A stretch of 64,000 nucleotides of DNA from Actinoplanes sp. M2I2 (GTDB taxonomy: Bacteria; Actinomycetota; Actinomycetes; Mycobacteriales; Micromonosporaceae), in contig NZ_JALPVJ010000004.1 in assembly GCF_023544445.1 (NCBI RefSeq), forward strand, positions 124,001 to 188,000, in the 5' to 3' direction. How positions within the stretch are numbered: position 1 is the stretch's first letter; each line of letters opens with the position of its first letter. The translations under genes and the position numbers were made by a program. Positions 50,478-60,191 of the stretch are shown here, one piece after another. The notes below the pieces were generated by a model, which worked only from the letters and a program-made list of their open reading frames with translations, did not search any database and was not told the origin of the DNA.

Positions 50478-51317
50478 TCAGACCCACTTGTCTCCGGTGA
50501 GGCGCTCGTAGACCTCGACGTACCGGTTGCGGGTCGCCTCGACGACCTCCTCCGGGATCTCCGGCCCCGGCGCCGTGCGGTCCCAGTCGGTCAGGGTCGA
50601 CGACCAGTCCCGCAGGAACTGCTTGTCCAGGTAGCGCTGCGTGCCGCCCGGCTTCCACTCGTCGGCCGCCCAGAACCGTGACGAGTCCGGGGTGAGCAGT
50701 TCGTCCCCCAGGGTGAGCGTGCCGTCCTGCGCGTATCCCAGCTCGATCTTGGTGTCCGCGATGATGATCCCCTGAGCGGCGGCGACCTGCTGCCCACGCC
50801 GGTACACCTCGAGCGTGATCCTCTTCAGCTCGGCCGCGACCTCAGGGCTGGTAGCGCTTTCCACATCGGCGTAGGTCATGAACTCGTCATGCCCCTCACC
50901 CGGCGGCACTTTGGTCGTGGGCGTGAAGATCGCCTCAGGCAGCTGCGACCCCTCGATCAGCCCCGCCGGCAGCGCCACCCCCGACACAGCCCCGTCCCGC
51001 TCATACTCCTTGAGCCCCGACCCGGCGAGATACCCCCGCGCGATGCACTCCACCATGACCATCTCGAGCCGCTCACACCGGACAGCGCGCCCGGCCCACT
51101 CCGCGGGCACGTCGGTGCTGGAGATGACATGGTTCGGCACCACGTCGGCGAGCTGCTCGAACCACCAGAGCGAAAGCTGCGTGAGGATCTTGCCCTTGTC
51201 CGGGATGGCAGTGGGCAGAACCACGTCATAGATCGAGATCCGGTCGGACGCAACAAGCAGGATGTCCCGCCCGTCGGCATAGACCTCACGAACCTTCCCC
51301 GAGTGCAACAGCTCCAC
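50478..51317 (-). CDS. purC: phosphoribosylaminoimidazole-succinocarboxamide synthase
   Basis: A 279-residue SAICAR synthetase of purine synthesis: LLHSGKVREVYADGRDILL, ASDRISIYDVVLPTAIPDKG, FTPTTKVPPGEGHDEFMT, IIIADTKIELG and LTPDSSRFW. GTG 51317. It marks the core-chromosome border of the next island. Confidence 0.96.
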   Translation of the reverse strand: MELLHSGKVREVYADGRDILLVASDRISIYDVVLPTAIPDKGKILTQLSLWWFEQLADVVPNHVISSTDVPAEWAGRAVRCERLEMVMVECIARGYLAGSGLKEYERDGAVSGVALPAGLIEGSQLPEAIFTPTTKVPPGEGHDEFMTYADVESATSPEVAAELKRITLEVYRRGQQVAAAQGIIIADTKIELGYAQDGTLTLGDELLTPDSSRFWAADEWKPGGTQRYLDKQFLRDWSSTLTDWDRTAPGPEIPEEVVEATRNRYVEVYERLTGDKWV

Positions 51318-51416
51318 GTGCTCCCCTTAGCTCCGCCGGGCGTACGGCCTCACGCTATCTGACCGGGATGGCGGCGATCAGCATGGTCCGAGCAGGACAA
51401 GGCAACAGCAGCGGGC

Positions 51417-52085
51417 CTATCTCCCCTCGAGTCCTGAGGCGAAGACACGTCGCTGAGAATCAGACAATCGGCTGTAACGCGCCCAGATCGCCAGCAGTGG
51501 CTTCCTGCGTTGCCGGCCGTGCAGTACCCACCGCCTCAGCACAGCGAGTTCTTCAGCGGATAGATCCTTCGTCGCCGCCAGGACATCGTCGGCCGTACCC
51601 ACTTGCGGCTCTGCCGCTCGGCACCGATCGCAGCAAGTCACGTAGCTGGGTCCTGTCCTGGACACGGTCAACTTCGCGGTCCGCAGTGCATCTTCTGGGT
51701 ACGTCTCGCCCGCCCCGATACCGCAGAAGCGGCACACGAAGTCATCGGCGGCGAACGTCTGCTGGCGTTCCTTCGCCGTAGGAAGCTTCGGCTTACGGGA
51801 CTGGTAGCCGTCTTGCCAAACCGCACCGCCCTCGCGCACCAACCGGAGCTCCCGGAGCGCCAGGGACTTGTCCTCACGATTGGTGGCTATGACCCATCCC
51901 TCGTCACGCAGGTCTCGCATTCGGCGATCTAGCTGCTCATCTTGCTCCTCCTTCTCAGAAGTGCTCAACGCTGTACGCATCTGCTGCTTGGTGAACACGC
52001 CGTCAGCGGTCACTTCAGCGTGTAACCACAGCGCAATGCGCTTGATGCCGGAGAGCTTGGCGTTACGCCAATCGGGTCGGGTCAT
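51417..52085 (-). CDS. wHTH plus HNH-like zinc-finger protein of the defence-type island
   Basis: A 222-residue protein. The N-terminal half is a winged-helix candidate (KRIALWLHAEVTADGVFTKQ, RMRDLRDEGWVIATN). The C-terminal half has treble-clef cysteines FVCRFCG and CCDRC spaced as in HNH nucleases, but the usual central HxxH is not evident, so nuclease activity is uncertain. ATG 52085 was chosen; the gap to the divergent ParB-like gene is only 65 bp and carries a CGACCGGTCG palindrome, suggesting a regulator or effector of that operon. Confidence 0.7.
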   Translation of the reverse strand: MTRPDWRNAKLSGIKRIALWLHAEVTADGVFTKQQMRTALSTSEKEEQDEQLDRRMRDLRDEGWVIATNREDKSLALRELRLVREGGAVWQDGYQSRKPKLPTAKERQQTFAADDFVCRFCGIGAGETYPEDALRTAKLTVSRTGPSYVTCCDRCRAAEPQVGTADDVLAATKDLSAEELAVLRRWVLHGRQRRKPLLAIWARYSRLSDSQRRVFASGLEGR

Positions 52086-52104
52086 GACGACCATAATTTC
52101 ATTA

Positions 52105-52114
52105 CGACCGGTCG
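52105..52114. promoter_or_regulatory. palindrome in divergent gap of the island
   Basis: CGACCGGTCG between the start codons of the HNH-like and ParB-like genes; the surroundings are AT-richer (ATAATTTCATTA). Confidence 0.4.
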
Positions 52115-52150
52115 AACGACACGACCTTGACCGCCGATGTGGGAGCAACG

Positions 52151-53617
52151 ATGATCTCGGAGCAAACCAGCGCCGCCCCGAACGGAGATACGTCCGTGAT
52201 CCTGCCTGGCCCAGCGAACTCCATGGATGTCAAGCAGGTAGTTGACCTGCGGCTTAAGGCCCTTGACAAGACCAGCTTGCTGGAAACGCTTTCGATCGAT
52301 TTTCGCGATCGACCGACACCACTCCCCGTTATCCAGATGCCGATCAATTTACTAACCTACAACCCCAATACCCACCGCATCCGCGCGCAACGGGCACTTG
52401 ATCCGGAGCGCAACAAGGCGCTCGACTCCGATCCATTCGGTCAAACCGCCCAAAAGTACTTGCACGACCTCCTCATGGGGAGTCCGACCGACCCGGGCAA
52501 GACAGACCCCAGTTTTGAAGCGCTGAGGGAAGATCTCCGCGACCACGGCCAGAACGAGCCGGGCATCATCACCCGCTCGGGCATCTTGATCAACGGCAAT
52601 ACACGCAGGGCGGCATTGAAGGAGCTGGGCGCCGAGAACATCCGCGTAGCTGTGCTGCCGGAAGACGCTGGCCTCGACGACATACAGAACATCGAACTTG
52701 CGTTACAGCTGCGCAGGGACCACAGACGTGACTACTCGTTCATGAATCTACTGCTGGCGATTGACGAACGAGTGGCGGCAGGACATCAGCCATCCAAGAT
52801 TCAGCGCGCATTCCGCATGAAGGCAGCGACCTTCGAGCGTAACGTGTGGATCTTGCATTTCGTCCGGGAGGCGATCGAGCGCAGTCGCGCAGACGGAGTC
52901 GCGGGAGCAGAACTTTCGATGCGCTTGATTGACTTCGAAGCTGATCAGGGTCAGCTGGAGGAGCTTTATCGAGCGTGGAACGTGCTAAAAGGCAAGTCGC
53001 CTGACCAGGCGGAAGCTCTCAAAGAGCAACGGCTGGTCGCCATGGTCTTAGACAAGTCGAAGACGGACCTCCGCCTCATCGAAGCCGACTTCGCCAAAAA
53101 ATATCTGAAGGATCTGGTTCCCAAGGTCAGCACGCTGGCTGCACCGAAGTCGATTCCAGGCACGTCGATCAAGACTGCTGCACCAAGCGCAGACCTCGAA
53201 TCTTTGAAGTCTTTCACAACGTCGATCTTGAAGGCCAAGGCTGCTGAGCTCTCGCCGTCCCTAGTAACGTCGGATCAGCTTACACAGGCGACGGCAACCT
53301 TGAAGAATGTCGATACGGCATTCGATTCAGCACTCGACAAGGCCGGCAAGAACAGCCGCGTCACCAAGCGGCGCTTCGCCGCTGTGGAACGCCTAACCGA
53401 TGCTGCGGAAAGCCTCGACCTTGCCACCTCCGCAGTCGCTGACGCCCGCGCAACTGCGAACTTCGACGCCGACGACCTAGACGACGCGCTCGGGCAGATT
53501 CAGCGCAGCATCACCAAGTTGGCCCAGCTGGTCTTGCGTTCGGCCGACAGTCCTGCGGAGCGGCCCGGGTTAACCTGGCTCCGCGAGGCGGCGACCGTCA
53601 AAGACACCGATTCCTGA
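52151..53617 (+). CDS. ParB/Srx-fold N-terminal domain protein
   Basis: A 488-residue protein. Around residues 60-190 it has ParB-like elements: LPVIQMPINLLTYNPNTHRI, FEALREDLRDHGQNEPGIIT, and the nucleotide-binding-like INGNTRRAALKELGA, followed by HTH-like QPSKIQRAFRMKAATFERN. The C-terminal 200 residues are helical and unlike chromosomal ParB. Not near oriC, so partitioning is unlikely. It is the first gene of a three-gene operon with a SNF2 helicase. ATG 52151 with GGGAG upstream. Confidence 0.82.
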   Translation: MISEQTSAAPNGDTSVILPGPANSMDVKQVVDLRLKALDKTSLLETLSIDFRDRPTPLPVIQMPINLLTYNPNTHRIRAQRALDPERNKALDSDPFGQTAQKYLHDLLMGSPTDPGKTDPSFEALREDLRDHGQNEPGIITRSGILINGNTRRAALKELGAENIRVAVLPEDAGLDDIQNIELALQLRRDHRRDYSFMNLLLAIDERVAAGHQPSKIQRAFRMKAATFERNVWILHFVREAIERSRADGVAGAELSMRLIDFEADQGQLEELYRAWNVLKGKSPDQAEALKEQRLVAMVLDKSKTDLRLIEADFAKKYLKDLVPKVSTLAAPKSIPGTSIKTAAPSADLESLKSFTTSILKAKAAELSPSLVTSDQLTQATATLKNVDTAFDSALDKAGKNSRVTKRRFAAVERLTDAAESLDLATSAVADARATANFDADDLDDALGQIQRSITKLAQLVLRSADSPAERPGLTWLREAATVKDTDS

Positions 53618-55434
53618 TGCTTGAGCTGCGCTTCTCGACTGCGGCCGGACGGATCGAGCTCAGCTGCGACGAAAACCACATCAGATTCCTGCAAAGGCTG
53701 CGGAGCAAACTGCCCACCGCATCCAGCATCAGTCCTACGACCGTCGATGTCGACATCGACGACTTTCTCGTCAATCTTGCCGAGCTGGCTCAGTGGCCAG
53801 ACGACGACTACGAGAACGTTCACTGGCAAGCGGAGCTGCTAGCGCTGGTCGAACAGAACAATGCGGATGCCAACATCGCGGCGTCTAGTTTGTCCGATGG
53901 TGACGATGCAACCGTCTCGCATCCGTCGACGGTGGCCCCGCTGCTCGGCGGAGGCTGGATTGGAAACCTCAACGATCGGCAACGCGGGCACCTCGCAAAA
54001 CTGCTCAACCTGTCCCACGGCGCCAACTTCAGTGTTCCCGGCGCAGGAAAGACACGAGTTGGGCTAGCTGTCTACCAAGCGAGACGCGATCAGGGCCTCA
54101 TTCAGCGGATGCTCGTCGTCTGCCCCAAGTCGGCATACGAAAGCTGGTATGACGAGACAACCGCCTGCTACTCGGCGGGGATGGCGCCGAAGGTAGCTGC
54201 GATGGACTCCTCAGCGGTGCCATCGGCTGACATTGTCTTAATCAACTATGAACGACTGCCGGATGCACGTGCCGCCTTGCTGGCGTGGCTCCGCGCGAAG
54301 CCCTCCATGCTGATCCTTGATGAAGCGCACCGGATGAAGCTTGGAGCGGCCGGAGCATGGGGAGCTGCATGCCTTGCACTCGGGCCCTATGCAGCTCATC
54401 GCCTGATCCTCACAGGGACACCGGCGCCAAACGGTTCTCGAGATCTTGAAAACCTGATGTCCTTTGTCTGGCCTGGACAGGGCCGTTTAGCAGTCTCTCG
54501 GGCAGTCGCGGGCGATGACCTTCGTGCGGCGAGCCAGAAGCTCCGGCCCCTATTCGTACGAACCACGAAGGCGCAATTGCAGTTGCCGCCCATCGACGTC
54601 AAGACTGTCCCGGTCGAATTGCCGCCTCTCCACAGGGAGCTCTATGACGCACTACTCGGGCAGATGTCTAGGCGAGTTCGGGCGGGCGCGGACGAGATTG
54701 AATCTCTTGGCAGAGTCACTCTCTACCTTTTGATGGCCGCGACGACACCAGCACTCCTCGCACCCGGAGCAAGCAGGTATGATCCGCTGCCTTACCAAGT
54801 CCCACCGCTTGCGCCCCCGGGTGACTCTTCGCTGGTCGAACTGATGCGTGACCTTCCTGCGTACGAGATGTCACCCAAGTACCAGGCCGCCCTTAAAATA
54901 GTTTCGGACAACGCGAAACGCCAGCGCAAGACGATTGTTTGGTCGACATTCGTCCGAAACCTGACATCGCTCGAGGACTTGCTCAAGCCCTTCTCGCCGG
55001 CGCTGATCCATGGCGGTACCCCAGACCGGGCTGAACAGCTCGGAAGATTTCGTGAAGACGAGAGCTGCATGGTATTGCTTTCCAACCCGGCCACGCTTGG
55101 CGAGGGAGTCAGCTTGCATCAGGTTTGCCACGAAGCGGTATATGTAGACCGTGATTTCGCAGCCGGTCGATTTTTGCAGAGCCAGGATCGCATTCACCGC
55201 CTCGGCCTTCCATCCCAGACAATGACCCGGATCCGTATACTCGTGGCGAACCAAACGATCGACGAGCTGGTTGCCACTCGCCTCTCCGCCAAGCTCAATT
55301 TTATGGGCGGCGTGCTTGACGACCCCGAAGTCCTGCAACTAGGTGAGCTGGATGAGGAGCCGGATTCCTCCGTCGGCATGAACAGCGCAGACATCGCAGC
55401 GCTGCTGACCTACTTGTCCGATGCTTCCGCCTGA
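53617..55434 (+). CDS. SNF2-family DEAH helicase
   Basis: A 605-residue superfamily 2 ATPase: motif I FSVPGAGKTRVGL, motif Ia LVVCPKSAYESW, motif II LILDEAHRMK, motif III LTGTPAPNGSRDLENL, and C-terminal motifs LLSNPATLGEGVSLH and QSQDRIHRLG. DNA translocation or remodelling is expected. The N-terminal 110 residues are family-specific. Overlaps the ParB-like stop by one base; the next gene starts 14 bases before its end. Confidence 0.93.
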   Translation: MLELRFSTAAGRIELSCDENHIRFLQRLRSKLPTASSISPTTVDVDIDDFLVNLAELAQWPDDDYENVHWQAELLALVEQNNADANIAASSLSDGDDATVSHPSTVAPLLGGGWIGNLNDRQRGHLAKLLNLSHGANFSVPGAGKTRVGLAVYQARRDQGLIQRMLVVCPKSAYESWYDETTACYSAGMAPKVAAMDSSAVPSADIVLINYERLPDARAALLAWLRAKPSMLILDEAHRMKLGAAGAWGAACLALGPYAAHRLILTGTPAPNGSRDLENLMSFVWPGQGRLAVSRAVAGDDLRAASQKLRPLFVRTTKAQLQLPPIDVKTVPVELPPLHRELYDALLGQMSRRVRAGADEIESLGRVTLYLLMAATTPALLAPGASRYDPLPYQVPPLAPPGDSSLVELMRDLPAYEMSPKYQAALKIVSDNAKRQRKTIVWSTFVRNLTSLEDLLKPFSPALIHGGTPDRAEQLGRFREDESCMVLLSNPATLGEGVSLHQVCHEAVYVDRDFAAGRFLQSQDRIHRLGLPSQTMTRIRILVANQTIDELVATRLSAKLNFMGGVLDDPEVLQLGELDEEPDSSVGMNSADIAALLTYLSDASA

Positions 55435-55945
55435 GGGAACCTTGCGTGCGGCTTTACGATGGCTGCACCTGCTGGCACGTTCCTCATATGATCAGGCAGC
55501 GGCACTCATCAGCGCGGATCCGCAGTATGCCGATCTCACTCGGACCCAGTATGCCTCCGCTATCGACTGGCTGTTAGCGCTCGACCTGATTGTGTGGACG
55601 GCGGATGGAAGTGTTACACCGAATCCGTCGGCGCACGGTCGATCGACTAACGTCGCACGCGCATTACTCAGTGCGGCACTTGAGCAAGCTCGTCCGCCCT
55701 GGCTCTTCGTGGCTGACAGCTACCTTGCCGACGCAGATGATCTTCCTAGCGATCTCGCACAGCTCGCTAATGTGCTAGGAATGCAGAGTGCCGAAGCGGT
55801 GCTGACGGTTCATCAAGTTCATCAGAAGATTGATCTAGCTGAGCGCGCGCGGATTGGGGCAGCTGGCGAGTCGGCTCTGGTTGATCTATTAATAAGGTCG
55901 TGCCGGGTTCTGCCGACCATGTCGCGCTCGATAGTGACGGGCTAG
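55421..55945 (+). CDS. N-terminal part of a DUF3883-type nuclease-like protein (frameshifted)
   Basis: 174 residues: helical-bundle N-terminus (LRWLHLLARSSYDQAAALIS, YADLTRTQYASAIDWLLAL), ending with the entry to the DUF3883 domain (RIGAAGESALVDLLI). It then loses homology (RSCRVLPTM...) and stops at 55945. The missing remainder is the next frame. A single extra base near 55900 would join them. Last gene of the ParB-SNF2 operon. Confidence 0.75.
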   Translation: MLPPEGTLRAALRWLHLLARSSYDQAAALISADPQYADLTRTQYASAIDWLLALDLIVWTADGSVTPNPSAHGRSTNVARALLSAALEQARPPWLFVADSYLADADDLPSDLAQLANVLGMQSAEAVLTVHQVHQKIDLAERARIGAAGESALVDLLIRSCRVLPTMSRSIVTG

Positions 55946-56304
55946 GCTATGACATCGAGCTATCCGCCGGGCCAGCCGTCTGGCATGTGGAAGTCAAGAG
56001 CACGAAACGCCGTGGACGACTTGACGTCTACCTCAGCCGGCATGAGTTCGAAGTTGCGCGTCTAGATCCTGCCTGGCGCTTGGTGACCGTCGGTCTCGAC
56101 GAGGACGGCCACATCGGCGCGATTGCCACCGTTCCAACAGATGCGCTGCTCGTGCAAGCACCGGCGGATCGCGCCACCACGGCGCGCTGGGAAAGTGCGA
56201 AATTTAGTCTAAGGCCCACTGACCTCCGACCCGGTATTCCCTTCTTTGACCTCGATGTATCAGTGGCTAATTCGAGACGATTTGCCTGGATGCCGCTCAG
56301 CTAA
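55900..56304 (+). CDS. C-terminal part of a DUF3883-type nuclease-like protein
   Basis: 134 residues holding the domain core GLGYDIELSAG and WHVEVKSTKRRG, a PD-(D/E)xK-like DxE...ExK arrangement, then SRHEFEVARLDPAWRLVTVG. A GTG at 55900 with AAGG only a few bases before allows re-initiation, but the expected protein begins in the preceding frame. Its end overlaps the convergent methyltransferase gene by 8 bp. Confidence 0.72.
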   Translation: MPGSADHVALDSDGLGYDIELSAGPAVWHVEVKSTKRRGRLDVYLSRHEFEVARLDPAWRLVTVGLDEDGHIGAIATVPTDALLVQAPADRATTARWESAKFSLRPTDLRPGIPFFDLDVSVANSRRFAWMPLS

Positions 56305-57538
56305 TCCGGGTGCGGTGTTTGTGGAACTGCTCGTGCCTGGTGTGCTCCGCCTGCCCTAGAAAGGCTTTGAAACCGCCGAGCCGATAAGCCACCACAGGTC
56401 CGCTCGCCTCGATCTCGATTTCAAAGTCACGGCTCAGCATGCTGATCCGTCGCTCGAGCTCGGGTGTGTCGGTTACGCCTGCGAGGCGCCCCAGCCGTTC
56501 AGCCGTGATGAACTCGTCTGCCGAGCGCAATGCCTTGTAGATCGGATCGTGTTCGACATCACGCCGTTCGGCTCGCTCACCCTCGAGATTGAACGCTCGC
56601 ATGATGGCACCGCCCACTGCAGCCGCCACGGGGGGCGGAAAGGCGTTGCCGATCTGGCGGTACCTGGTGGTCTTCCGCCCGGTAAAGGTCCATTGGTAGT
56701 CATCCGACCAACCCTGGATCCGAGCCACCATCTCGGTAGTGAGCTTGGGGCCAACTTTGTACGTGTCGCCGGCCTTCGGCGGCGCATCAGCGACGCCCAG
56801 CGCGTCGACGCCAAGTTCCGCCCACGCTCTCTTCGCGCGTGTAGGACCGAGATCCGCGCCGCCGTGCTTCTTGGAACCACCGACGATCGTGGGCGCGATG
56901 CGGTCGGCCTTGCTTGCCCATGCCCCGGCGCCCTCCCACCCATCGGAAGCCATCAGCTCTTCGAGCGACTCGCCGACGGTCGTTACATGCCCTACCGTGG
57001 CCGGCCACGCGAAATGCGCGGCTTCATCGGCCTCACGCATGGCAACCAAGACGAAACGTGGCCGGAGCTGTGGTACTCCAAAGTCGGATGCTTGCAGGAG
57101 CTGCCACGATGCTTGATAGCCGAAAGCAGCGAGCCGGTCGAGCACATGCTGGCGGTATCCGGCGAAGCGCGGAAGGCTGAGACCCCGGACGTTCTCTAGG
57201 AGGAGCGCACGCGGTTTAACCACGTTGACCAGCTCGACGGCCCATGCAAACAGGTCCCGCTCGTCAGTCGCCCCAAGCTGCTTTCCCGCGATAGTGAAAG
57301 GCGGGCATGGGACACCGCCAGCCAGAAGTGCAACCCCCTCATAAGCCGCGGGGTTCCACGTCTCCGGGTCCGCTACGTCGCCCTGAGCCACCTTCCAGGA
57401 AGGTCGGTTCTCACGCAACGTGTTGCACGCGTTGGTGTCGAGCTCCACTGCTAGAGCGTGCTCGAATCCGGCCTTTTCCAGGCCCAGAGCCTGTCCACCG
57501 GCACCTGCACAGATCTCTACGACCTCGAGGTCGCCCAT
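56297..57538 (-). CDS. DNA (cytosine-5) methyltransferase of the NaeI-type system
   Basis: A 413-residue enzyme: motif I EICAGAGGQALGLEKAGF, catalytic motif IV GGVPCPPFTIAGKQLG, motif VI LLENVRGL, motif VIII QLRPRFVLVAM and motif X GNAFPPPVAAAV. The last 75 residues (ADEFITAERLGRLAGVTDTP) look like an added winged helix. The NaeI-like endonuclease is 0.7 kb away, so GCCGGC is the predicted target (inference). Confidence 0.93.
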   Translation of the reverse strand: MGDLEVVEICAGAGGQALGLEKAGFEHALAVELDTNACNTLRENRPSWKVAQGDVADPETWNPAAYEGVALLAGGVPCPPFTIAGKQLGATDERDLFAWAVELVNVVKPRALLLENVRGLSLPRFAGYRQHVLDRLAAFGYQASWQLLQASDFGVPQLRPRFVLVAMREADEAAHFAWPATVGHVTTVGESLEELMASDGWEGAGAWASKADRIAPTIVGGSKKHGGADLGPTRAKRAWAELGVDALGVADAPPKAGDTYKVGPKLTTEMVARIQGWSDDYQWTFTGRKTTRYRQIGNAFPPPVAAAVGGAIMRAFNLEGERAERRDVEHDPIYKALRSADEFITAERLGRLAGVTDTPELERRISMLSRDFEIEIEASGPVVAYRLGGFKAFLGQAEHTRHEQFHKHRTRIS

Positions 57539-57633
57539 GAGGCCTCCTTACCGGACTAGGCGCGCACGCCGATTGCTGCGGGAGTATCTTGCACCAAGGT
57601 GCGGCGCGAGGGGAGTAGCCGTGTGGTGGTGGG

Positions 57634-58098
57634 ATGTTGGTGGCTAGGAACGACGCTGCAGAGACCCGTAAGCGTGCGCACGCAGAGGGGCTGTATCCAG
57701 CGCCCCTGAACCCGGGTCGTTCCCGGAACATGCAGGCCAATCGGCGACGGGACACCAAACCGGAAGTCGTGCTCCGTCGCGCCTTGCACCGCCTCGGGTA
57801 TCGGTACCGCAAAGACCTTTTGCTTCGGCTCGAGGACGTCAAGGTGCGCCCGGACATCGTCTTCACGAGGAGGAAGGTGGCTGTCTTCGTCGACGGCTGC
57901 TTCTGGCACGTTTGCCCTCAACATGGCCGGCAACCCACCACAAACGAGTGGTACTGGACACCCAAGCTTCGCCGGAACATGGAGCGAGATGAGCGCGCCA
58001 ATGAAGCGTTACGGCAGGAGGGATGGTCGGTCGTCCGCGTCTGGGAGCACGAAGCGCTCGACGAGGCAATAGCCTCGGTGCAGGCCGCGCTCCATTGA
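57634..58098 (+). CDS. vsr: very short patch repair endonuclease
   Basis: A 154-residue Vsr nickase that corrects T:G mismatches from deaminated 5mC: RRRDTKPEVVLRRALHRLGY, RPDIVFTRRKVAVFVDGCFW, HVCPQHG and WSVVRVWEHE. Divergent from the methyltransferase by 95 bp. GGTGGTGGG precedes ATG 57634. Confidence 0.93.
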   Translation: MLVARNDAAETRKRAHAEGLYPAPLNPGRSRNMQANRRRDTKPEVVLRRALHRLGYRYRKDLLLRLEDVKVRPDIVFTRRKVAVFVDGCFWHVCPQHGRQPTTNEWYWTPKLRRNMERDERANEALRQEGWSVVRVWEHEALDEAIASVQAALH

Positions 58099-58213
58099 CC
58101 GAACATGTGTACGACCCTACATCCTCTGGCTGGCAGCGGCTAGCCGACACGCTGGGATTCTGTTGAACCCCTAGCCTGGGTGACAGAGCCGGCAAGGACA
58201 GCTCAACGAATCT

Positions 58214-59245
58214 TCACACCCGCGGCAACTTCGGAGCTGGTTCGGTCACTTCCTCACCGTCTTGGGCGACCCGCCACCAACGGCCTCCAATCTCGACTGC
58301 AGGGAACTCGCCGACTTGGGCGGGTACGACCCGGATGCTGACGATTTCCCCCGCTTGCGGGAGCGGCTGGTCCAGTGCACGCGCTACATTGCGATGGGCC
58401 GCATATTCACCGGGAATGAGGTAGCCCTCTTTACGCAACCTGGTCCGAGCACCATGACCGTTGTCTCTCACCCGCGCCATGTAATCGTCCTGCTGAGCAA
58501 CAGTAGCGATGGTGTTGCGGCCGATTCTCCGGCCAGTGACGAGCCGGCATAGCTGGAGAATCCTGGCTTGACCGGTCTTGAGGCTAAAGATTCTCCGAAT
58601 GATCTCGGGGTCGAGGGTCAGTAAAATGTTCGGCGGCAGCGGTTGATCTCGGAATATCCACCGGATCTGCGCGGTTCCCCGCTGGTTGAGCTGCGTTTTC
58701 CCGTCCCGATTTTCCGTCTTGCGACGGTTTACCTCACTAGCCCGCACAACGCCGAGGCTCCATAACCCTTTTTCGTCGTTTGCGGTCGCGACCAGCAAGA
58801 GATGACCAAAGCATTCTGGCGGGAGCATCCAGCCGTGCATCTTCTGGGAGTACTTGCAGTCGATGTCGTAGCCAGAAACCCGGTAGTCCAGCACGCTGCT
58901 TTCGTCTGGAACATCGTCGATGACGTCATCAAAAGCGCGACGCAAGTTGATCTCGAAGAGGCTTCCGTAGTGGGTCTTCTCGGTCTTCATTAGCTGGTCC
59001 CAGCGGTAACGCCCAGTGTGCTGGCCGTCGTAGAGCAAATCGAAGGTCTGGCGGAACACAGCAGAGAGACGGGCGCCGTCAGGGTCGGCCAGCAGGAACT
59101 TCGCGGCGATAGCTTCCCGAGCCGGATCGGGGTCGAGGCCGGTCTGTGAAAGGTTGGCGAAGAGTCCCTCGGTCATGCCAGCAAGATATGCCAAAGCGTG
59201 CGACCCTGCGCTGGACGTAAGTAGTGGGCTTGTTCCGTCGGCCAT
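58214..59245 (-). CDS. NaeI-family type II restriction endonuclease
   Basis: A 343-residue enzyme, near NaeI's 317. Signature blocks in order: YRWDQLMKTEKTHYGSLFEI, catalytic-region YRVSGYDIDCKYSQ (D...DxK-like), WMLPPECFGHLLLVATAND, then the second DNA-binding (CAP-like) half GRRIGRNTIATVAQQDDYM. NaeI-type enzymes need two GCCGGC sites. ATG 59245 follows AGGGAG; the longer frame adds 35 untypical residues. Confidence 0.92.
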   Translation of the reverse strand: MADGTSPLLTSSAGSHALAYLAGMTEGLFANLSQTGLDPDPAREAIAAKFLLADPDGARLSAVFRQTFDLLYDGQHTGRYRWDQLMKTEKTHYGSLFEINLRRAFDDVIDDVPDESSVLDYRVSGYDIDCKYSQKMHGWMLPPECFGHLLLVATANDEKGLWSLGVVRASEVNRRKTENRDGKTQLNQRGTAQIRWIFRDQPLPPNILLTLDPEIIRRIFSLKTGQARILQLCRLVTGRRIGRNTIATVAQQDDYMARVRDNGHGARTRLRKEGYLIPGEYAAHRNVARALDQPLPQAGEIVSIRVVPAQVGEFPAVEIGGRWWRVAQDGEEVTEPAPKLPRV

Positions 59246-59553
59246 GCAGGCTCCCTGCCTGCTAACCCGCCAGCCCCCCGCGGCTAGTGACGCCTTGAAA
59301 CTGACCCGAACGCGGAGCAGATTTACTAGCCCCGTACCGGCTGATAGCACTGGCAGGCTTAGGTGTCAGGAACTTGGTGTGGTGAGCGATCGCGGCGTAC
59401 CAGGAGCGCTGTTGCCCAGAGGTCTGCGCCGGTCGCCGGGAACGCGGCTAAAGCCTTCAACTGCCTGCAGTCAGAACGATCCGGCCAGGGAACGAGGCGA
59501 TGGAACATCGGCGTCGGCCAGGAGCAGGGATGGCGATGCCCGGGATGCCGGAA
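59246..59553. other. intergenic right edge of the island
   Basis: About 300 bp, mixed composition and no credible gene. The transition back to high-GC core sequence occurs here. Confidence 0.4.
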
Positions 59554-59578
59554 AGGGCGGCCCGCCAGGCCGCCCTTC
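59554..59578 (-). terminator. terminator for the DUF305/LPMO operon
   Basis: 10-bp stem AAGGGCGGCC / GGCCGCCCTT with a 5-nt loop, 14 bp past the minus-strand stop at 59592. Confidence 0.7.
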
Positions 59579-59591
59579 CGGAGTACGTGAG

Positions 59592-60191
59592 TTACCCGTT
59601 CATCAGTTTGAGCATCTGCTGGATCTCGCCCTGGCGAGACTCCTGCACCCGTTCCGCGAACTTCTTGGCCTCGCCGTTCTTGCCGCCGGTCAGTTCGACC
59701 TTCGACATCTCCATCGCCTGGTGCTGGTGGGCCAGGAAGAGGTTGAGGAACGCAGTGTCGAAGGAGGCGGCCTTCACCGTGGTCAGCGCCTTGATCTCGG
59801 CCTCGCCGGTGCCGGGCAGGCCGCCGTGGTCGGCGTGCAGGCTGGGCGCCTGGTCCACCTCGGTGGACGCGTTCCAATCTTCGAGCCAGGACTGCATCAT
59901 CGCCAGCTCGTCCTTCTCGGTGGCCTGGATGGCCTGGGCCAGCGTCTTCAGTTCGGGGCTCTGCGCCCGCTCGACGGCTGTGGTGGTCATCCGCAGGCCC
60001 TGCTTCTGGTGGTAGGCCAGCATCTGCAGGAACATCACGTCGGTGTCGTTGTGCTCGTCGCCGGCCTTGATCTCGGCCACCGCCTCGGCCGCCACGGTGG
60101 GCTTGTCGGCCACGGGGGCCTCTTTCGCCGTACCGCAGGCTCCGAGCACGAACGGCGTGAGCAGGACGACTGCCAGGAGGCGGCGGTTCAC
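59592..60191 (-). CDS. DUF305 lipoprotein
   Basis: A 199-residue lipoprotein; lipobox FVLGAC near residue 19. DUF305 helices with Met/His repeats: DVMFLQMLAYHQKQGLRMT, LAMMQSWLEDW and NLFLAHQHQAMEM. Such His/Met-rich helices bind metal in related proteins, often copper. GTG 60191 overlaps the stop of the LPMO gene (GTGA), so both are made together. Confidence 0.9.
   Translation of the reverse strand: MNRRLLAVVLLTPFVLGACGTAKEAPVADKPTVAAEAVAEIKAGDEHNDTDVMFLQMLAYHQKQGLRMTTTAVERAQSPELKTLAQAIQATEKDELAMMQSWLEDWNASTEVDQAPSLHADHGGLPGTGEAEIKALTTVKAASFDTAFLNLFLAHQHQAMEMSKVELTGGKNGEAKKFAERVQESRQGEIQQMLKLMNG

Follow-up and report, generated by a model that had tools for sequence, protein, structure and literature searches.

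A putatively dead restriction-enzyme homologue with a ParB-like protein and an SNF2 motor in a restriction-modification island of Actinoplanes

What do a ParB-like protein and an SNF2-family ATPase do beside a DNA methyltransferase? The question is raised by four genes in a 64,000-nucleotide stretch of Actinoplanes sp. M2I2 (contig NZ_JALPVJ010000004.1, positions 124,001 to 188,000; hereafter the window, whose first letter is position 1). A winged-helix HNH-like gene (51417..52094, − strand) is divergent from genes for a ParB-like protein (52172..53617, + strand), an SNF2-family ATPase (53617..55434, + strand) and a DUF3883 protein. The ParB and SNF2 frames share base 53617 and the SNF2 and DUF3883 genes overlap by 14 bases, which bears out the order, the tight packing and the divergent first gene described in an earlier note on this DNA. 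That note had set the four genes apart from an adjacent restriction-modification (RM) system. Our results revealed instead that they are part of one island with the adjacent RM genes for a 5-methylcytosine (5mC) methyltransferase, a Vsr protein and a NaeI-family endonuclease. We propose, with a confidence poised about midway between doubt and belief, that this RM-linked set (a dead restriction-enzyme homologue, a ParB-like protein and an SNF2 protein, with or without DUF3883) forms an ATP-dependent restriction complex guided by the dead enzyme. More broadly, the cassette probably defends against invaders: the dead enzyme is predicted to read unmarked foreign DNA and its partners to destroy it.

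A conserved gene set beside a cytosine methyltransferase

Genome contigs were searched with a profile of the ParB alignment, and the best 80 of 223 relatives were taken as loci L007 to L086. The sample is mostly from Actinomycetota, plus one Chloroflexi metagenome-assembled genome and one Corallococcus. We found that SNF2 lies directly after ParB (overlap or at most 10 bp) in all 80 loci and that each locus has an HNH-like gene, the copy of L041 being a fragment at a contig start. A 5mC methyltransferase is present in 78 of the 80, in 75 of them within 3 kb; the two loci that lack it are L040, at a contig end, and L061. Vsr occurs in 70/80 loci, DUF3883 in 41/80, a NaeI-like endonuclease in 30/80 and a NgoMIV-like one in 6/80 (36/80 together). 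Unsupervised clustering of open reading frames (ORFs) of at least 100 amino acids, in which the window genes were not used, gave SNF2 (80 loci), ParB (80), HNH (79), methyltransferase (77) and Vsr (69) as top families. The linkage of the ParB-SNF2 pair with the methyltransferase is far beyond chance. The set travels together across many genera, as the earlier note had supposed, and does so with RM genes; neither homologues scattered without conserved neighbours nor an identical catalogued operon turned up in the libraries and the accessible part of the literature searched.

Two layouts were seen. One is that of the window, with a divergent HNH-like gene and with DUF3883; in the other the HNH-like gene is co-directional, usually behind a divergent HTH-type gene. 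The HNH-like gene is divergently transcribed in 24/80 loci, and the HTH-type family was found in 56/80. Its members, such as L012:7995-8873 and relatives, are proteins of about 270 amino acids with weak HTH_31 matches that lie divergently upstream of the co-directional HNH-like gene, and might be controllers.

A second view came from 200 Micromonosporaceae genomes, of which nine carry a full-length ParB-like gene. In eight of these nine the gene lies within about 5 kb of a methyltransferase, and the ninth (G018) has the two on different contigs; G145 and G157 gave weak ParB matches. A close methyltransferase (E below 1e-130) was present in 14 of the 200 genomes, five of which have no ParB. The dependence appears to run one way: cassettes are accompanied by the methyltransferase, which itself needs no cassette. 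NaeI-family genes occupy 29 places in these genomes, six of them within 10 kb of ParB and 23 not. A phage origin was rejected, since a scan of viral contigs confirmed none of 22 pattern matches as a relative and tblastn of phages found none.

A putative reader, clamp, motor and cutter

Neither the ParB-like protein nor the HNH-like protein, which we propose to be the site reader, has a Pfam match over the cutoff or a significant PADLOC or NCBIfam match, and on this ground a catalogued system was rejected. A PDB sequence search with profiles of the two gave one chance-level match each, so their folds rest on predicted models. The model of the reader has a predicted winged helix and a weak match to EcoKMcrA, and its C-terminal half gave no confident fold match. 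Of the structure predictions that the earlier note had called for, this one returned the winged helix, while that of the ParB-like C-terminus returned no informative match.

To compare catalytic residues, 80 cassette copies of the reader were aligned: 77 from the 80 loci (that of L041 was too short), the window's own, and those of L110 and L111, which may repeat another genome of the set. The catalytic HNH histidine is absent from all 80, the window's included, with arginine at its position in 72 and a gap in one. The four zinc cysteines are kept in all 80, and the asparagine after the last cysteine pair is absent from all 80. To judge from its sequence, the product of the window's first gene is no active nuclease but a dead restriction-enzyme homologue. 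An active HNH nuclease was rejected on the same arginine count and because no histidine column reaches 40% in the family.

HNH copies outside cassettes behaved differently. A 400-bp rule sorted 11 copies as outside, eight of them with the histidine; two without it, in L010 and L048, were regrouped as dead because they are the sole HNH copies of their own cassettes. Nine true outside copies remain: seven Streptomyces loci each contribute a second copy, near another methyltransferase, and L108 and L109 have one copy each, beside a methyltransferase plus NaeI. Eight of the nine keep the histidine and all nine the asparagine. The 200 genomes added 12 HNH relatives, of which the nine adjoining ParB all lack the histidine and the three elsewhere (G006, G017 and G231) all have it. 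Furthermore, two HNH relatives with the histidine match a PADLOC Type II endonuclease model (3e-5 and 8e-7).

The model of the ParB-like protein (pLDDT, the predicted local distance difference test, 82.6; built from 28 sequences) matches KorB, ParB and Noc over residues 45-313, the predicted N-domain plus HTH, with KorB among the tied best matches. On this model the protein falls in the ParB/Srx superfamily, in the ParB-Noc-KorB branch, with the N-domain fold followed by the HTH; the helical C-terminal part gave no informative structural match. Three ParB-like boxes picked out by eye, NPxTHR, GNTRRAA and ELxLQLR, may be comparable to known CTP motifs. The SNF2 protein matches Pfam SNF2-rel_dom (PF00176, 3.1e-16), and its Walker A (GAGKT in the window) and DEAH motifs are conserved in 81/81 sequences. 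In a Pseudosporangium locus the SNF2 gene is split in two frames (L059:11271-13144).

The last forward gene of the cassette carries the NOV_C/DUF3883 domain (PF13020, 4.3e-7), a domain called a novel restriction endonuclease domain in the accessible part of one survey (PMC3710099). That much of the earlier assignment stood; that the window's gene is broken had escaped notice. A net one-base frameshift near 55,890 splits it into a first half (55421..55945, + strand), which aligns to the N-terminal half of the intact counterpart in L007, a single 303-amino-acid frame, and a second half (55900..56304, + strand) with the NOV_C domain and the D...ExK motif. Mismatches to L007 are commonest at third codon positions on both sides of the break; because this excess persists on both sides, the break is recent or a sequence error. 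The D, E and K of the motif are conserved in 42 of 43 DUF3883 rows; the exception is the first half from the window, which lacks that region.

Genes scanned near DUF3883-bearing cassettes encode transporters, an amidohydrolase, a peptidase, TPR and HTH proteins, HATPase, GmrSD, AAA and UvrD-like proteins and thymidylate synthase, and in this partial scan of neighbouring genes no cutter common to the cassette loci was found. Two Streptomyces loci have a GmrSD_N (PF03235) protein between DUF3883 and Vsr (L043:14103-16184, for which the Pfam match was obtained, and L083:14235-16280); it is a possible extra Type IV-like nuclease.

Counterparts with other restriction-enzyme folds, and the readings weighed

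ParB-SNF2 pairs were also found beside proteins of other restriction-enzyme folds, which likewise look dead. The SNF2 proteins of the alphaproteobacterial, Paracoccus, Lactiplantibacillus and Priestia loci described next all reach 3e-60 or better against the Actinomycetota SNF2 profile. Four alphaproteobacterial plasmids have the order X-ParB-SNF2-DUF3883 with a C5 methyltransferase. Three of them have Vsr, none being annotated in the Azospirillum plasmid stretch, and in the Mesorhizobium plasmid a transposase lies between SNF2 and DUF3883. X has no similarity to the HNH protein; it is distantly paralogous to PDLC03501, a PADLOC Type II endonuclease of a PD-(D/E)xK family (2.8e-19), and the Rhizobium locus that encodes X also has a proper PDLC03501 member (2e-137) next to its methyltransferase. 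We compared the 120 best-listed of 410 X homologues, one short protein excluded, with the 120 best-listed of 3066 homologues of that endonuclease. Not one of the 119 aligned X proteins has the catalytic D or the E, whereas 120/120 endonucleases have the two; the K is common to both groups. The ParB neighbour was checked for the four plasmid loci among these homologues. The X family occurs in 17 plasmid records, of which the four closest to X are the four with this ParB; the other 13, 28-31% identical, gave no ParB match.

A Paracoccus plasmid has, in order, an N6_N4 methyltransferase, a 156-amino-acid BglII/BamHI-like protein, ParB, SNF2 and DUF3883. Against BamHI, the EFE stretch reads QLQ in this protein, with glutamine for two glutamates. 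Its ParB (E <= 1e-5) and SNF2 (E <= 1e-40) match the same 6 of 72,556 plasmids. A Lactiplantibacillus plasmid carries ParB, SNF2 with an N-terminal PLD domain, a 247-amino-acid Sau3AI-like protein and Vsr, with a C5 methylase upstream. The 247-amino-acid protein aligns to Sau3AI residues 261-509 only (3.6e-42), that is, to the C-terminal half alone, and this half of Sau3AI binds DNA without cutting. In Priestia the counterpart is 512 amino acids long and aligns, over its first half, to that same part of Sau3AI; it has no glutamate at what is presumably the ExK place, as located from MutH.

The Lactiplantibacillus ParB matches 71 plasmid records, 52 of them from Enterococcus. On Enterococcus plasmids a distant ParB-SNF2 pair lies behind a protein of about 865 amino acids with HhH- and Sigma70_r4-like matches (L130:2850-8545 and L131:2884-8559). 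The second half of the Priestia Sau3AI/MutH-like protein (L129:9421-10959) resembles, by eye, the C-terminus of the Enterococcus 865-amino-acid protein, which may point to a domain that partners of ParB-SNF2 have in common.

We propose the following sequence of events for the cassette. The methyltransferase, assigned to its family from sequence, would mark host DNA at a predicted target, and the dead enzyme would bind the same site solely when it is unmodified. It may then recruit or load the ParB-like protein, of modelled ParB fold, as a putative nucleotide-gated DNA clamp, and the SNF2 motor, as its family suggests, would move along or remodel DNA from the site. Cutting would fall to DUF3883, with its D...ExK intact in relatives, or to the PLD domain, and in loci without DUF3883 to another nuclease. 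Vsr would repair deaminated 5mC, the known role of its family, and a conventional endonuclease such as NaeI is in the same locus in 36/80 cases. A wider proposal, to which we give somewhat less than an even chance, is that of a general RM class: dead restriction enzymes of at least four nuclease families (HNH, PD-(D/E)xK, BglII/BamHI-like and Sau3AI/MutH-like) would have been independently recruited to read sites. These readers would be interchangeable and would load a ParB-type clamp and an SNF2 motor, while a different protein, the nuclease DUF3883 or PLD, would cut the DNA. Each reader family counts as an event of its own, but the copies of one family do not. Restriction normally couples recognition and cutting in one enzyme or holoenzyme. 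If the proposal is true, there would be a restriction logic with swappable specificity, in which dead restriction enzymes repeatedly serve as readers for a segregation-type ParB and a remodeller-type motor. ParB clamps in immunity would become testable, DUF3883 would gain a concrete context, and it would be explained why many Actinomycetota have genes of the ParB, SNF2 and HNH kinds next to methyltransferases.

Several observations weigh against a restriction complex. The window's own DUF3883 gene is frameshifted, and both DUF3883 and a NaeI/NgoMIV endonuclease are missing from 18 of the 80 loci. Ten neighbour genes from seven of those 18 are mostly housekeeping: eight have families (DsbA, PrsW, tRNA-methyltransferase-like, thioesterase, hydrolase, RNA-ligase-like, DUF6882 and SEC-C) and two do not. 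The outside copy in L027 has arginine instead of the histidine, the cassette copy G203 keeps the asparagine after the last cysteine pair, and the many dead HNH copies share ancestry and count as one loss event. No methyltransferase lies within 10 kb in L061. The Enterococcus pair, with none found in 5.5 kb, shows that ParB-SNF2 is not confined to RM. For the BglII-like case there is one sequence, with matches below threshold (PDB E about 0.5; Pfam 25.2 bits, the cutoff being 26). GCCGGC, which we take to be the NaeI site, is not enriched near the divergent starts (5 seen against 10.6 expected in 24 loci). Reader and methyltransferase distances correlate at 0.28 raw and at 0.13 when ParB is allowed for, a value reached by 17 of 2000 permutations, in a test limited by nearly all these methyltransferases belonging to one family. 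As this covariation is weak, it was not used as proof of site matching. Similar SNF2 proteins (distance under 0.25) are shared by 153 locus pairs, and in 79 of these the methyltransferases are far apart (over 0.45).

Three other explanations were considered. The dead enzyme and the ParB-like protein could form a methylation-sensitive repressor of the RM genes, with SNF2 and DUF3883 in another role or as passengers. Such expression control would suit a predicted winged-helix protein whose gene is divergently transcribed in those 24 loci, and KorB, one of the tied best structural matches of the ParB-like model, shows that repression is within reach of a ParB-type protein. However, the lack of GCCGGC enrichment at the divergent starts led us to reject the reader as a GCCGGC-binding autoregulator, a separate HTH-type family is present in 56 loci, and repression needs no SNF2 motor and nuclease-like protein; we consider this explanation improbable. 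We regard as equally improbable a role in restriction alleviation or self-protection, in which the dead enzyme would occupy sites and ParB-SNF2 would strip the active endonuclease off host or replicating DNA, so that a NaeI-type system would cost less. Displacing other proteins from DNA is a common activity in the SNF2 family, endonucleases of the NaeI or NgoMIV type are present in 36 of the 80 loci, and methyltransferase/NaeI sets exist without the cassette. Yet 44/80 loci lack such an endonuclease (other endonuclease families were searched in part; two of the 44, L022 and L028, have an HNH relative with the histidine), and both the nuclease residues kept in DUF3883 relatives and the PLD domain fused to SNF2 in Lactiplantibacillus argue against such a role.

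Slightly less probable still is loose hitchhiking, an independent defence module that shares hotspots with RM and has no functional coupling to it. The five of 14 close methyltransferases without a cassette and the 23 of 29 NaeI-family places not within 10 kb of ParB point that way, as does the Enterococcus pair. Pairwise distances of reader, ParB and SNF2 also intercorrelate (r 0.83-0.90) far above their correlation with the methyltransferase (r 0.18-0.28). The reverse is rare, though: only 2 of the 80 cassettes stand in a locus without a methyltransferase, and of these two, one lies at the end of its contig. In addition, the readers are restriction-enzyme homologues of several unrelated folds. 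Compared with these explanations, a restriction complex guided by a dead enzyme remains the one we favour.

The purC island and its relation to known systems

The host is an Actinoplanes-type genome (G000) of 9.58 Mb. In blastn comparisons with eight Actinoplanes relatives, homology breaks on the left at window positions 51327-51364 in all eight and returns on the right at 59534-59721 in seven; the stretch compared for L107 does not include the right flank. The inserted island thus spans 51365..59533 (no strand assigned), and its seven genes cover 7701 of 8169 bases (94%). Beyond the cassette it holds the C5-cytosine methyltransferase (56297..57538, − strand; PF00145, 5e-58), Vsr (57634..58098, + strand; TIGR00632, 7e-50) and the NaeI-family endonuclease (58214..59350, − strand; PF09126, 6e-105). 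GC content is 58-64% per kb over 51-59 kb against about 70% in most of the window, in agreement with the lower-GC island of the earlier note. We also observed that GCCGGC occurs 1.10 times per kb in the island, less often than in the whole window (3.02 per kb).

The left flank is purC, for SAICAR synthetase (50478..51317, − strand; cluster c61, PF01259), which adjoins RM cargo in relatives. This gene and its left side, and the genes beyond 59.5 kb, are conserved in the eight related genomes. At the purC site, L106, L108 and L109 carry a methyltransferase, Vsr and a NaeI relative without ParB-SNF2, L110 and L111 carry cassette variants and L112 carries 2.6 kb of other DNA. Because relatives have the site with and without ParB-SNF2, it is an RM hotspot of which the cassette is a removable part of the cargo. 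Another close relative has different RM-like cargo of about 9 kb there, with a C5-methylase-like ORF, Vsr and several long ORFs (L105:8611-17444).

With NaeI-type Type II RM the island shares a C5 methyltransferase, a candidate for GCCGGC methylation, Vsr and the endonuclease, but that trio stands without ParB-SNF2 in the three relatives named above. The cassette SNF2 or the methyltransferase also resembles the DrmD, ZorD, DpdE or DruM2 models of DISARM, Zorya, Dpd and Druantia. DrmD reaches 38.9 bits against a cutoff of 610, and DUF1998 (DrmB) and PLD (DrmC) were unmatched at E <= 1 in the eight island ORFs; ZorD (19.1 of 1500 bits) and DpdE (17.6 of 500 bits) likewise fall far short of curated cutoffs; for Druantia type II the methyltransferase alone matches (DruM2 4e-194, MTase_II 2e-192), with no match to DruE, DruF or DruG. 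No other hallmark gene of these four was found among the island's proteins, and the mismatch with known systems that the earlier note had reported is upheld for them. BREX gave a weak BrxH match to SNF2 (18.5 bits) and no other core gene, such as those of the PglZ or BrxC type, among the eight ORFs.

The closest likenesses are in the literature, and we describe them from the accessible parts of each paper. CglI and NgoAVII (PMC4267653, PMC5737866) share a methyltransferase and an SF2 ATPase that couples site recognition to cleavage, but their R protein is an endonuclease and their ATPase DEAD-family, whereas the cassette has an SNF2 motor, a reader that lacks the catalytic histidine and an added ParB-like protein. 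MORC/paraMORC RM operons (PMC2292703) unite an SNF2 ATPase, an HNH-superfamily protein, a cytosine methylase and Vsr in one predicted operon type; the central protein there is a GHKL (MORC) ATPase instead of a ParB-like one, and no dead-enzyme reader is described in the portion consulted. No HATPase match was obtained among the eight island ORFs, although some other loci do have HATPase genes close to the cassette. RM operons of the HEPN survey (PMC3710099) include an SNF2 helicase fused to DUF3883, a ParB nuclease whose gene shares an operon with those of DNA methylases, and proteins that combine ParB and HNH domains; HEPN partners are at the centre. ParBc, HNH and Vsr are also among the Type II RM neighbours of response-regulator-like proteins (PMC8011034), where two-component-like proteins and paraMORC ATPases are central. 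The consulted portions of these two papers do not describe the reader-ParB-SNF2 set, nor was a description found in the literature searched, which leaves most subscription papers outside. Nevertheless, parts of the idea, as the accessible portions of PMC2292703, PMC8011034, PMC3710099, PMC4267653 and PMC5737866 indicate, are already in print.

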